From positions 310,001 to 374,000 of the forward strand of contig JAUXNJ010000047.1 of assembly GCA_030682795.1 (NCBI GenBank): a DNA stretch of 64,000 nucleotides, written 5' to 3'. Origin of the DNA: Sphingobacteriaceae bacterium. Its GTDB lineage: Bacteria; Bacteroidota; Bacteroidia; UBA7662. The notes beneath the pieces are model-generated. The model was given only the letters and a program-made list of their open reading frames with translations. It made no database searches and was not told the DNA's origin. The translations under genes and the position numbers were made by a program. Below, one piece after another: positions 20,033-24,191 of the stretch; the stretch's first letter is position 1; each line of letters begins with the position of its first letter.

Positions 20033-20993
20033 GACCCGTCCTTTGCTTTATCAAATAGCGATTTCTATCGGCTGAACTCCGCGAAACCAATTCCGCTAAA
20101 AAGCCAGTCACAAACAGTTGAACCCCTACTATCACTAAAACCAAGGCTAAAAAGAATAATGGCTGACTCGTAATGTCACGGTGTGGAAGCTCGTTGGCTA
20201 TTTTAAACAGTTTATCGAAAATCACCACAACGGTTATCACACCTCCAGAAAAAAACGACAACGAACCCAGCAATCCAAAAAAGTGCATGGGTTTCTTGCC
20301 AAAGCGAGATACAAAATAGATGGAAAGCAAATCTAAGAAGCCATTTACAAAGCGCTCTAAGCCAAATTTAGTATGACCATACTTGCGAGCACGATGCTCT
20401 ACCACCTGCTCTTCAATCTTCTTAAATCCAGCCCAATTGGCAATAACCGGAATGTAGCGGTGCATTTCGCCGTACACCTCGATGCTTTTCACTACTTCGG
20501 CGCGGTACACCTTGAGGCCGCAATTAAAATCGTGCAAATTATTTACCCCTGAAACCTTACGTGTGGCCCAATTAAAGAGCTTGGTAGGGATGGTTTTGCT
20601 CAATGGATCGTAACGCTTCTTCTTCCAGCCAGAAATCAGGTCGAGGCCTTCTTCATGCAAGCGGCGATAGAGCACAGGCAACTCGTCAGGACTGTCCTGC
20701 AAATCGGCATCCATGGTAAATATGGTTTTACCCAAAGCCGCTTCGAAACCCACATTTAACGCTGCTGATTTGCCGTAATTACGCTGAAAACGAATGCCTT
20801 TTACACAAGGGTTGGCTTGATTTTGCGCTTCAATTACCGACCAAGAACCGTCGGTACTTCCATCGTCGATGAGCAGTACTTCGTAGCTGAAACCCTCCTT
20901 ATCCATTACACGAGCAATCCACTCGCACAATTCGGGCAAAGATTCTTCCTCATTTAAGAGGGGTATGACGATGGAAATATCCAGTTTTTGCAT
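20025..20993 (-). CDS. Membrane GT2 glycosyltransferase, GtrB/DPM-like
   Basis: The 322-residue enzyme has a cytoplasmic GT-A domain with LLIDDGSTDGSW (about 40-51) and FTMDADLQDSPDELP (about 92-106). Two C-terminal transmembrane helices follow (FFGLLGSLSFFSGGVITVVVIF and PLFFLALVLVIVGVQLFVTGFLAELV). This is the fold of GtrB and polyprenyl-phosphate glucosyl- or mannosyltransferases, which load a sugar on undecaprenyl phosphate for use on the periplasmic side. It overlaps the DUF4199 gene upstream by one base and the GT4 gene downstream by 8 bases. The combination suggests a lipid-linked glycan route, but the sugar is unknown. Confidence 0.92.
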   Translation of the reverse strand: MQKLDISIVIPLLNEEESLPELCEWIARVMDKEGFSYEVLLIDDGSTDGSWSVIEAQNQANPCVKGIRFQRNYGKSAALNVGFEAALGKTIFTMDADLQDSPDELPVLYRRLHEEGLDLISGWKKKRYDPLSKTIPTKLFNWATRKVSGVNNLHDFNCGLKVYRAEVVKSIEVYGEMHRYIPVIANWAGFKKIEEQVVEHRARKYGHTKFGLERFVNGFLDLLSIYFVSRFGKKPMHFFGLLGSLSFFSGGVITVVVIFDKLFKIANELPHRDITSQPLFFLALVLVIVGVQLFVTGFLAELVSRSSADRNRYLIKQRTGLE

Positions 20994-21541
20994 CAGGCTT
21001 CTTCTTCAAACAATGGGGCTTCTTTTTTAACAAAAGCAGCCACAATGAGTGCTACAAAGGTGCTAAAAATGGCCGTAATGAGCAAAGCGGTAAACGAGGC
21101 TCTTAAGTCTTGCTTAAACTGGCGCTCATCCATATTGGCCATGGCCTGATCGATGGTTTCTTCGGATGCTCCCATGCTTTCCATCATGCCGAGTGTCTTT
21201 TCCAAAGTCAATTCGCGAATGGTTTCTGGTAAGGTAGGATCAATGTAATTGTAGAGAATGGCATTAAACAGCACACCAATGATGCTCGAAATGACACCAA
21301 CCGCCAAGCCAGTAACCACGCCATGACCATAAGATAAACCACCGCCGTTGGCTGAACGCTGTTCTTTCATTGCCAGCACCATGAAGGTGACCAACAGCAC
21401 CAAGCTGATGGCTGAATTCCAAAAGGAAATCAGTAAACTCACATCAATGAGGTATAAAACCAAGATGTACGCCACATTCAAGCCCCCTAAGTACAATCCC
21501 CATTTCACCATGGGCTTTTGAAAAATTCCTTGCTGTTCCAT
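20993..21541 (-). CDS. DUF4199 membrane protein (copy 1)
   Basis: The 182-residue Bacteroidota protein has four hydrophobic helices: about 14-33, 38-57, 73-95 and 148-170. A charged loop near 100-145 contains SMGASEETIDQAMANMDERQFKQDL. The order of two helices, GGLSYGHGVVTGLAVGVISSIIGVLFNAILYNYIDP, a charged loop and a last helix is the DUF4199 pattern. No function is established. It lies next to membrane GT2 and GT4 genes, 4 bases downstream of a second DUF4199 gene, so it may help that envelope pathway. The C-terminus is acidic (PLFEEEA). Confidence 0.85.
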   Translation of the reverse strand: MEQQGIFQKPMVKWGLYLGGLNVAYILVLYLIDVSLLISFWNSAISLVLLVTFMVLAMKEQRSANGGGLSYGHGVVTGLAVGVISSIIGVLFNAILYNYIDPTLPETIRELTLEKTLGMMESMGASEETIDQAMANMDERQFKQDLRASFTALLITAIFSTFVALIVAAFVKKEAPLFEEEA

Positions 21542-21545
21542 AATT

Positions 21546-22064
21546 TTAATTTCGGTAATAGATGGATATCATAAAGCCTACTAATAGACTCCAAAGTAAG
21601 CGAAAAACAAAGGTAAATACCGCCAAATATGATTTACTCGCATTTCGAATGCTGTCTTGCAACATTTCTATTTGTCCAGCATTGTAATTCTTTTCGATGG
21701 TTGCCCGCCCCTGCTCTAAGGTGCGCAGCTGATCGTTGATGTGCAGCATCCACAATTTATCTGAAAACGAAATCCATACAAAAAGGGTCAACGAATACAA
21801 CAAGGCACTCACCAAACCCACCGCCAAAGCCACCATAAAGCCATGCGTAACATTCATACTGCCCTGGTTATAGATGTATTTGTAGTTGCGCATGGCCAAA
21901 ATCATTACCGCCACCGTCACCAAACCCAACAGCAGCCGAAACTGCCCCATAGGGTCAAACTTCAAGGAAAACAATATCAACGCCGCAAGCAACGATAAAC
22001 CGGCAGCATAGGATCCATAGCGGAACCCAACCGTTACCATGGCGTATCGAAACATTTCTCTCAT
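21546..22064 (-). CDS. DUF4199-like membrane protein (copy 2)
   Basis: The 172-residue protein shares the layout of its downstream neighbour. It has helices at about 15-33, 41-58 and 75-99, and a last one at 147-167. The loop between helices 3 and 4 is charged and contains LRTLEQGRATIEKNYNAGQIEMLQDSI. The segment GSMNVTHGFMVALAVGLVSALLY corresponds to the GGGLSYGHGVVTGLAVGVISSII segment of copy 1, which indicates an old tandem duplication. Function is unknown. It lies 56 bases downstream of the acidic orphan gene. Confidence 0.8.
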   Translation of the reverse strand: MREMFRYAMVTVGFRYGSYAAGLSLLAALILFSLKFDPMGQFRLLLGLVTVAVMILAMRNYKYIYNQGSMNVTHGFMVALAVGLVSALLYSLTLFVWISFSDKLWMLHINDQLRTLEQGRATIEKNYNAGQIEMLQDSIRNASKSYLAVFTFVFRLLWSLLVGFMISIYYRN

Positions 22065-22120: not shown

Positions 22121-22930
22121 TCAAGCCACAGTTGAATTAATTAACAAAGACGCAGGAATGCCTGCAATTCCCTTATAAAAGAACAACATGGCCAAACAAA
22201 CAGGTAGATTTCGCTTTACCTTGCCCCCAGCACTGGCTGTAGCTAATAAATTGATTTGGGCTTTTTCGGGACTCTTAAAAAAGCAAAATAGCGGCGTAAA
22301 TAGCTCAGGAATAGCAGTTTCCTCTTCCATTGCCTCCGCCTTTGCTACCATTTCAACATAGGTAAGGTCAAGCCAATCTCGATTTGTAATCAACTCTTCA
22401 TACACTTCCAAATCGTCTTGAAACTCGAGCTCATCATCGGTCAGATAGCCTTCAATAAAATCATCAAGGGTGGCTTTCATTTCAGAATCGCGCACTTCTT
22501 GCAAATACATGAGCATGTGTAACATTTCGGTGCCGCGCTCAGCAACCTTGTCTTCGATGCGCTGCCATTCAGGCGATTCCATCCAATCTTCATCGCCGGC
22601 TTCCTCCTGCTGGCTCAACCATGCTACATAAAGCAGGTCAAACAGATATTCTTTATACTCAGACAAAGCCTTGTATTGCGCCACCAAGGCGTCTAAGGAT
22701 TTGATGTCGTTCATCAAATCGGCAGTTTGGGCTAAAAGTGCAGTAAATTCCGAATAAGCCGCTTGCACTTCTTGCTCGGCAGTTTCAGCTGCTTGCTTTT
22801 GCAGCGCGGCTTCTAAAAACTGTTGTACGTCTTCAGGCTTTTTACCTTTTATTTGGTCGATATGTGGTAGCTGTGCCAGTCTGATACCCGTAAAAAGGCC
22901 CGTGGCAGCATTCATTAAGTCGTTATGCAT
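22121..22930 (-). CDS. Acidic protein of unknown function
   Basis: I do not recognise this 269-residue protein. It has no signal peptide. Residues 30-70 and 75-105 look helical (KPEDVQQFLEAALQKQAAETAEQEVQAAYSEF). The middle is strongly acidic, with DEDWMESPEWQRIEDKV and LDDFIEGYLTDDELEFQDDLEVYEELI. The last 50 residues are more hydrophobic and basic (KVKRNLPVCLAMLFFYKGIAGIPASLLINS). It overlaps the dihydroorotase homologue by 8 bases, so the two are translated together. It may bind that protein or act in the same envelope pathway, but this is inferred from the overlap only. Confidence 0.75.
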   Translation of the reverse strand: MHNDLMNAATGLFTGIRLAQLPHIDQIKGKKPEDVQQFLEAALQKQAAETAEQEVQAAYSEFTALLAQTADLMNDIKSLDALVAQYKALSEYKEYLFDLLYVAWLSQQEEAGDEDWMESPEWQRIEDKVAERGTEMLHMLMYLQEVRDSEMKATLDDFIEGYLTDDELEFQDDLEVYEELITNRDWLDLTYVEMVAKAEAMEEETAIPELFTPLFCFFKSPEKAQINLLATASAGGKVKRNLPVCLAMLFFYKGIAGIPASLLINSTVA

Positions 22931-24191
22931 GGGAAATGTAATGATGATGGCCGCGCACTACCAAGCGAATAGGTGCTTTTAAGTTTTGACCGATGAAAGG
23001 ATTGTTGATGCCTTTGGTTCTGAGATTTGCTTTTTCAACCATGTAGGTTTCAGCTACATCAAAAACAACCAAATCGGCTGGCGCTCCTGCTTCGAAGCTC
23101 ACTGCTGGGAGCCCCAACAATTGAGCAGGTCGCTGGTTAAGAGCTGGCAAAACTGCCGCCAATTCTTTTGGCGAGCAAGCGCTGGCAACTACGGAAAAAG
23201 CCGTTTCTATGCCTGCAATGCCTGGTTTAGCCAAATCAAATTCTAGAAATTTATGTTCTACGTCTTCCGGCTGGTGGTCGGAACAAATAACGTCGATTAC
23301 GCCCTCGGCCACTGCTTTGAGCAGGGCAAGCCGATCGGTTTCGGTTCGTAAAGGCGGCATTACCTTGTAATTGGTATCGAAGCCTGGTAGGACCTCGTGG
23401 TTGAGTAGCAAATGATGCGCACTCACGCCACAACTCACTTGCATGCCCGCAGCTTTGGCTTCCCGAATGAGTTCTACGCTGCGCGCCGAGCTTATTTTGG
23501 AGAAGTGTAAGCGGCCTCCTGTATAACTTAACAGGGCCAAATCACGTGCAATCTGCATTTCTTCTGCCAAAGCGGGAATGCCTTTGAGCCCCAACTGAGT
23601 GCTCACTACGCCTTCGTGCACCTGTCCCGATTTGCTTAAATACGCATCATTGGGATAGCTCATCACCAAGGCGTTTACATGCTGTGCGTATTGCAAAGCC
23701 CGCATTTGAGCACTGGTATCTGCTACTGCTTTATCGCCATTTGAAAAGCAAATGGCTCCTGCCCGATGCATATCGAGCATTTCGGTGATGTCTTTACCCT
23801 CTAAATTTTCGGTGAGGGCTCCTGCCACCAATACTTGTATGGGCGCATTTGCAGCTTTGCTCAGCATCGCCTGCACTTCACCTTTGGTTTGGATGTAAGG
23901 AAAAGTATCGGGCTGCAACAAAACGCGCGTGAATCCTCCGCGGAAAGCCGCTTCACAACCACTGGCCAAATCTTCCTTGTACTCGAAGCCGGGGTCCCTA
24001 AAAAAAGCATACGTATCTACAAAACCGGCACTCACCCAAAGTTCCTTGCCGGTAATTTCGGTGGCCCCAGGAGCCGACAATTCCGCCCCAATACGCTGAA
24101 TTATACCTGCTTTTACTTCAATATCTACTACTTGCAAGTGATGAGCATTGGCTTCGTTGAAAAGCTTGGCCGATTTTATTAGCAGATGCAT
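22923..24191 (-). CDS. Dihydroorotase homologue lacking the zinc-binding site
   Basis: The 422-residue protein has the amidohydrolase fold and clear similarity to class I (PyrC multifunctional-complex type) dihydroorotases: LWVSAGFVD, EDLASGCEAAFRGGFTRV, the HHLLL segment, ICSDHQPE and a C-terminal IGQNLKAPIRLVVRG. The metal motif DxHxHxR is here D59-T-Y61-A-F63-F-R65, so both histidines are gone. The usual second-metal histidine is changed (LHFSKISSA for xYHxxHxST). It should therefore be catalytically dead, like the PyrC' proteins that scaffold aspartate transcarbamoylase in pseudomonads. It directly follows the BatA gene (no gap) and overlaps the acidic orphan by 8 bases. An automatic label of active dihydroorotase would be misleading. 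Confidence 0.85.
   Translation of the reverse strand: MHLLIKSAKLFNEANAHHLQVVDIEVKAGIIQRIGAELSAPGATEITGKELWVSAGFVDTYAFFRDPGFEYKEDLASGCEAAFRGGFTRVLLQPDTFPYIQTKGEVQAMLSKAANAPIQVLVAGALTENLEGKDITEMLDMHRAGAICFSNGDKAVADTSAQMRALQYAQHVNALVMSYPNDAYLSKSGQVHEGVVSTQLGLKGIPALAEEMQIARDLALLSYTGGRLHFSKISSARSVELIREAKAAGMQVSCGVSAHHLLLNHEVLPGFDTNYKVMPPLRTETDRLALLKAVAEGVIDVICSDHQPEDVEHKFLEFDLAKPGIAGIETAFSVVASACSPKELAAVLPALNQRPAQLLGLPAVSFEAGAPADLVVFDVAETYMVEKANLRTKGINNPFIGQNLKAPIRLVVRGHHHYISHA

Follow-up and report, generated by a model that had tools for sequence, protein, structure and literature searches.

A dihydroorotase homologue without a metal site is kept beside BatA across the Bacteroidia, probably as a non-catalytic partner of aspartate transcarbamoylase

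The window analysed here, a stretch of 64,000 nucleotides (positions 310001-374000 of contig C26 in a Bacteroidia genome of 3.1 Mb), holds a gene whose product looks like a dihydroorotase (DHOase), lacks most of the residues that bind metal in that enzyme, and lies among envelope-type genes. This raises the question of what a DHOase homologue is kept for once its metal site is gone, and whether its neighbours or its ancestry point to its function. The open reading frame is real and begins with ATG (Table 1). The class I DHOase model TIGR00857 (pyrC_multi) matches the whole protein with 327.8 bits, above its cut-off of 279, so automatic annotation would call it a dihydroorotase. The best match of known structure by sequence is Aquifex DHO (3d6n), and the AlphaFold model (mean pLDDT 89.7) has 3d6n_A as its best structural match, with a TM-score of 0.88; on both counts the fold is that of a full-length, homologous class I DHOase. 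We propose, with a probability of about 0.7, that this pseudo-DHOase is a pseudoenzyme that goes back to an ancestral PyrB-PyrC pair, in which it was the DHOase subunit, and that it is kept as a non-catalytic partner of PyrB, the aspartate transcarbamoylase (ATCase).

Table 1. Positions of the features discussed, in the window unless another contig is named
Feature	Position	Strand	Remark
Pseudo-dihydroorotase (PyrC'-like), 422 aa	22923..24191	-	ligands lost at residues 61, 63, 152, 179, 232; D305 kept
BatA-domain membrane protein, 697 aa	24192..26285	-	upstream neighbour; ORF call begins at TTG (putative start)
Acidic all-helical protein, 269 aa	22121..22930	-	probably outside the ATCase system
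Overlap of pseudo-DHOase end and acidic protein start, 8 nt	22923..22930	-	
DUF4199 paralogue	21546-22064	-	between acidic protein and glycosyltransferases
DUF4199 paralogue	20993-21541	-	between acidic protein and glycosyltransferases
REP-associated (Y1-type) transposase-like protein, 171 aa	18293-18808	-	convergent with valS, touching its end
PRK09236-type DHOase	L002:1396-2748		contig C41 of the same genome
PRK09236-type DHOase	L003:1486-2829		contig C5 of the same genome

The metal residues of Aquifex DHO are H61, H63 and D153 at the alpha site and H180 and H232 at the beta site, with D305 nearby (PMC3880350). Aligned to these, the six positions of the pseudo-DHOase read Y, F, G, Y, K and D, that is, five of the six ligands are gone (Y61, F63, G152, Y179 and K232) and D305 is the only one kept. 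The original prediction, made from the letters of the window, had read the DxHxHxR motif as D59-T-Y61-A-F63-F-R65 and the region of the second-metal histidine as LHFSKISSA, and both readings are correct; the histidine of LHF is conserved and is not a ligand, the true ligand position lying three residues downstream, where the pseudo-DHOase has a lysine. Aquifex DHO can do without its beta-site histidines and requires one alpha-site zinc (PMC3880350); because the alpha site is gone, we infer that the pseudo-DHOase has no DHOase activity. Aquifex DHO, its closest solved relative in both sequence and fold and part of a class A1 ATCase/DHOase, has its ligands intact and works as an enzyme when ATCase is bound (PMC3880350), whereas the pseudo-DHOase has one of the six left. 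The same holds for its relatives: neither the protein nor its orthologues have the H61-x-H63 pair with the remaining ligands that mark an active class I DHOase, and when the ligand columns were compared, none of 110 Bacteroidia orthologues had a working set. Nearly all of them retain one to three of the six ligands, D305 is retained in 108, and H-x-H is present in a single orthologue (L017), in which the other four ligands are missing.

The host genome encodes two further DHOases, both of the PRK09236 type and both above the NF006688 cut-off, so that the second, intact pyrC for which the original prediction had suggested a search does exist, in the form of presumably active enzymes separate from the pseudo-DHOase. 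These proteins belong to the same superfamily, differ from the pseudo-DHOase in being only 24-26% identical to it and in forming a separate clade, and carry a Q-x-H motif with the other ligands kept. One of them (L003) is closest to 2gwn and retains the lysine segment VKIFMGSSTGN as in that structure; the other (L002) has VSDDGLYF there, nearer to the Aquifex-type Asp, and this second copy may have a different metal site or role. The pattern recurs in most Bacteroidia genomes, with one close match to the pseudo-DHOase and one PRK09236-like protein.

The origin of the pseudo-DHOase can be traced in other classes of the phylum, from which we took 20 genomes for comparison (L077-L096). The orthologue is mostly the sole DHOase match there at E <= 1e-20, and in 18 of the 20 all six ligands are intact, indicating an active type. 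It lies directly 3' of pyrB in seven of these genomes, with pyrR preceding in six of the seven (L079, L081, L084, L089, L093 and L095), and the PyrB of those six loci is 61-64% identical to that of the host. The sister-class pyrR-pyrB-pyrC operons thus hold direct orthologues of both proteins, and they differ from the arrangement in the host in that their PyrC has all six metal residues and follows pyrB. In the host genome and in 18 of 19 other Bacteroidia checked, pyrR and pyrB are still together. The DHOase tree unites the Bacteroidia pseudo-DHOases in a single clade (support 100/100) beside the sister-class active enzymes; judged from these sequences, the ligand loss is class-wide and ancient. 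The comparison shows an ancestral pyrR-pyrB-pyrC linkage, from which pyrR-pyrB would have stayed in place as pyrC moved beside BatA and, presumably, lost catalysis. The pseudo-DHOase would accordingly have arisen within Bacteroidota from an active ancestor of this kind, apart from Pseudomonas, as read from a tree that holds no Pseudomonas sequence. Inactive DHOases of two further families, f75 and f94, are placed elsewhere in the tree (some on long branches and with exact positions unsure), so that the phylum has seen no fewer than three inactivations of DHOase. The pyrB gene of f75 and its inactivated DHOase gene overlap by 1 nt (L256, L257), an adjacency like that in Pseudomonas.

The ATCase side of the proposed pair is also in place. 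PyrB of the host scores 405.7 bits with NF002032, keeps the active-site residues S80 and K84 (E. coli numbering), and is about equally close to the Aquifex and Bacillus ATCases (193 and 207 bits). Because most of its trimer salt-bridge residues are retained (E. coli numbering), PyrB may form trimers alone. The genome has no match to PF02748, so that the PyrI regulatory chain typical of class B ATCases is missing from it. The pyrR-pyrB locus (L073) contains no pyrC-like gene, and pyrB and the pseudo-DHOase gene lie on different contigs (C35 and C26) instead of side by side as in Pseudomonas; such adjacency is a trait of gene order and lies outside the definition of a class A2 complex. As for composition, the genome has a PyrB that carries the active-site residues of an ATCase, lacks PyrI, and encodes a DHOase homologue that is catalytically dead as judged by ligand loss and a separate, presumably active DHOase. 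These are the features of the class A2 ATCase of Pseudomonas, a dodecamer of PyrB and an inactive PyrC' or pDHO (PMC7053772), from which our case differs in that the gene is unlinked from pyrB and placed after BatA, and in that the complex is a predicted one. Fungal CAD-like proteins (URA2) also keep an inactive DHOase domain beside ATCase (PMC7053772, PMC6022934); that domain is part of a fused eukaryotic protein, and we liken the two by published descriptions only.

To see whether the pseudo-DHOase follows PyrB, we counted both by hand in 296 Bacteroidia genomes, with cut-offs of E 1e-40 for the pseudo-DHOase and 1e-100 for type-1 PyrB. Both are present in 243 genomes, the pseudo-DHOase only in 6, type-1 PyrB only in 11, and neither in 36 (Fisher odds ratio 133, p 2.6e-30, in a test that ignores phylogeny); phylogenetically, this perhaps corresponds to about four changes of PyrB type and a few losses, not to 36 independent events. 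PyrI was found in 15 genomes, none of which has the pseudo-DHOase. Lineages that lost it have a long-branch PyrB (f45, f52), a PyrB that groups with that of Bacillus (f23), a PyrI-type PyrB, or no PyrB at all (f41, G044, G186, G217). For five of the 11 genomes with PyrB only, all of genus g33, the explanation is a highly diverged copy, which adjoins BatA in the four g33 genomes checked, as does the copy in G268. In G239, BatA stands at the contig end, just where the pseudo-DHOase would come next, and in G010, G245 and G299 BatA is missing as well, leaving G006 and G292, where no copy was found, as unexplained exceptions. Among the six genomes with the pseudo-DHOase only, PyrB is partial in G048 and split in G074 and G166, and in G076 an active-type DHOase (L207) adjoins a PyrB that has diverged (both are missing from G186, a member of that genus); G036 is a real exception, with a very diverged copy and no PyrB detected. 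The hyper-diverged copies of g33 (L210, L211, L212, L214, L218) and G036 (L209) are down to 22-31% identity and still adjoin BatA. PyrB of g33 is likewise more diverged (60-63% against about 75%).

We suggest the following course of events. From an ancestral PyrB-PyrC pair, a class A1-type ATCase/DHOase, the DHOase reaction in Bacteroidia would have been taken over by another subfamily, the PRK09236 type, and the old PyrC would have lost its metal site and been kept since it goes on serving PyrB as a partner without catalytic function. By analogy with the Aquifex ATCase/DHOase, where DHOase dimers link the trimers of ATCase, and with the inactive DHOase of P. aeruginosa, we consider it most likely that the pseudo-DHOase is a structural subunit bound to PyrB. 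The ATCase of P. aeruginosa is inactive without its pseudo-DHOase (PMC7053772), and the Bacteroidia PyrB may depend on its partner in a similar way. DHOase dimers would probably bridge PyrB trimers into a dodecamer, and this bridging may stabilise or regulate ATCase. Two loops, 186-204 and 304-326, are conserved and yet partly of low confidence in the monomer AlphaFold model, as expected for loops ordered by a partner; loops of Aquifex DHO are disordered in the free protein and become ordered once ATCase binds (PMC3880350). The original prediction had offered two options, a PyrC'-type scaffold or a new role, and comparative genomics strongly supports the first, through the lack of PyrI in the host, the kinship of its PyrB to that of the pyrR-pyrB-pyrC operons, the co-occurrence with this one PyrB subtype, and the mutual exclusion with PyrI. 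An ATCase/pseudo-DHOase (class A2-like) holoenzyme, reached independently of Pseudomonas and encoded by two unlinked genes, is thus the best reading of the comparisons.

What counts against this partnership is that the gene is unlinked to pyrB throughout the class and stands stably beside BatA. In the window, the stop codon of BatA (TAG) is followed at once by the ATG of the pseudo-DHOase, with zero gap; among 80 named Bacteroidia loci, BatA directly precedes in 68, including those of the hyper-diverged g33 and G036 copies, with a median gap of 6 nt, and PyrB is nearby in none, which bears out the earlier statement that the gene does not sit among pyrimidine genes. An alternative is that the protein was recruited to an envelope module and works with BatA (in some families also with the acidic protein, DUF4199 and glycosyltransferases), its tie to PyrB being shared ancestry only. 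The identity matrices of pseudo-DHOase and BatA do correlate, and a mirror-tree comparison of pseudo-DHOase, PyrB and BatA in 16 genomes (15 with BatA), with rank correlations of 0.91, 0.94 and 0.93, did not prefer PyrB over BatA. Presence, however, is not tied to BatA: 13 genomes have the pseudo-DHOase without BatA and 27 have the reverse, giving an odds ratio of 13 against 133 for PyrB, and BatA is kept where the pseudo-DHOase is missing in the PyrI genomes G149, G174, G237 and G269 and in the PyrB-less f41 and G186. We consider recruitment of this kind unlikely. It is less likely still that the protein has two roles, as a partner of PyrB that also contacts the BatA-operon machinery and links an envelope process to the assembly of ATCase or to pyrimidine status. 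The counts show a statistical association with PyrB as well as with BatA, the linkage to BatA is stable class-wide, and a dual role, if true, would account for a gene that departed from pyrB and yet remained by BatA across the class; the separability from BatA indicates that a second role would not be essential everywhere. The original prediction had placed the gene inside an envelope operon, which fits the neighbours (BatA, the acidic protein, DUF4199 and glycosyltransferases) and describes them only, not the function; under the PyrB-partner reading, the operon context probably misleads.

The pattern of conservation bears on the two remaining alternatives. In the pseudo-DHOase, conservation is 90% or higher at 72 sites, and the ligand columns other than D305 are variable, with Q, R, H, K or Y at 61, N, S, R, H or F at 63, and N, T, K or S at 232. 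We regard it as very improbable that the protein has remained an enzyme, working with a rearranged metal site or catalysing some other reaction: D305, H306, R65 and several old active-site loops are conserved, and the beta-site histidines are dispensable in Aquifex DHO (PMC3880350), but the former ligand columns at 61, 63 and 232 vary freely among orthologues and the 72 most conserved sites include no alternative cluster of His, Cys or Asp. Compared with the nearest relative (87% identical), dN is 0.079 against a dS of 1.65-2.37, or a dN/dS of about 0.03-0.05, and with orthologues across the Bacteroidia the protein is indeed, as first described, diverged but preserved. Local decay in this one genome, for which orthologues with intact histidines had been named as the sign, is rejected, since the orthologues lack these histidines too and are under strong purifying selection. 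A gene on its way out altogether, as the extreme divergence of the g33 and G036 copies might suggest, has next to no probability, being largely refuted by this purifying selection, by full-length reading frames class-wide and by the 72 conserved sites.

In a search of the open-access literature we found no earlier report of a pseudo-DHOase from Bacteroidota. The kind of system, a class A2 ATCase, is known; what is apparently new is the lineage, the seemingly independent origin, the separation of the gene from pyrB and its spread through the class. In most of the class Bacteroidia, a curated model gives the name dihydroorotase to a gene whose product is very probably not one, and pathway models that count it as such would be misled, the real DHOase being the PRK09236-type protein. 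If the partnership with PyrB is true, the Bacteroidia use an ATCase architecture of the pseudomonad type, reached independently, and the at least two further inactivations in the phylum (f75 and f94) amount to a replicated natural experiment that bears on why ATCases retain dead DHOase subunits after another enzyme took over the reaction.

Several observations concern the surroundings of the gene. A scan for promoters and terminators gave signals no more often than chance. The acidic protein, DUF4199 and glycosyltransferase genes come after the pseudo-DHOase only in some families, and the acidic neighbour, which belongs to no Pfam family, was rejected as a fixed partner on these grounds. Its AlphaFold model has a pLDDT of 90.3, and nearly all of its top 25 PDB matches are ADP-ribosylglycohydrolases (ARH3 family), although weak ones (best E 0.23, TM 0.51); from this model it is possibly a degenerate ARH fold. 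The two adjacent DUF4199 paralogues occur in the same order in several relatives. The transposase-like protein near valS, recognised by eye, is also present in one relative (L034).
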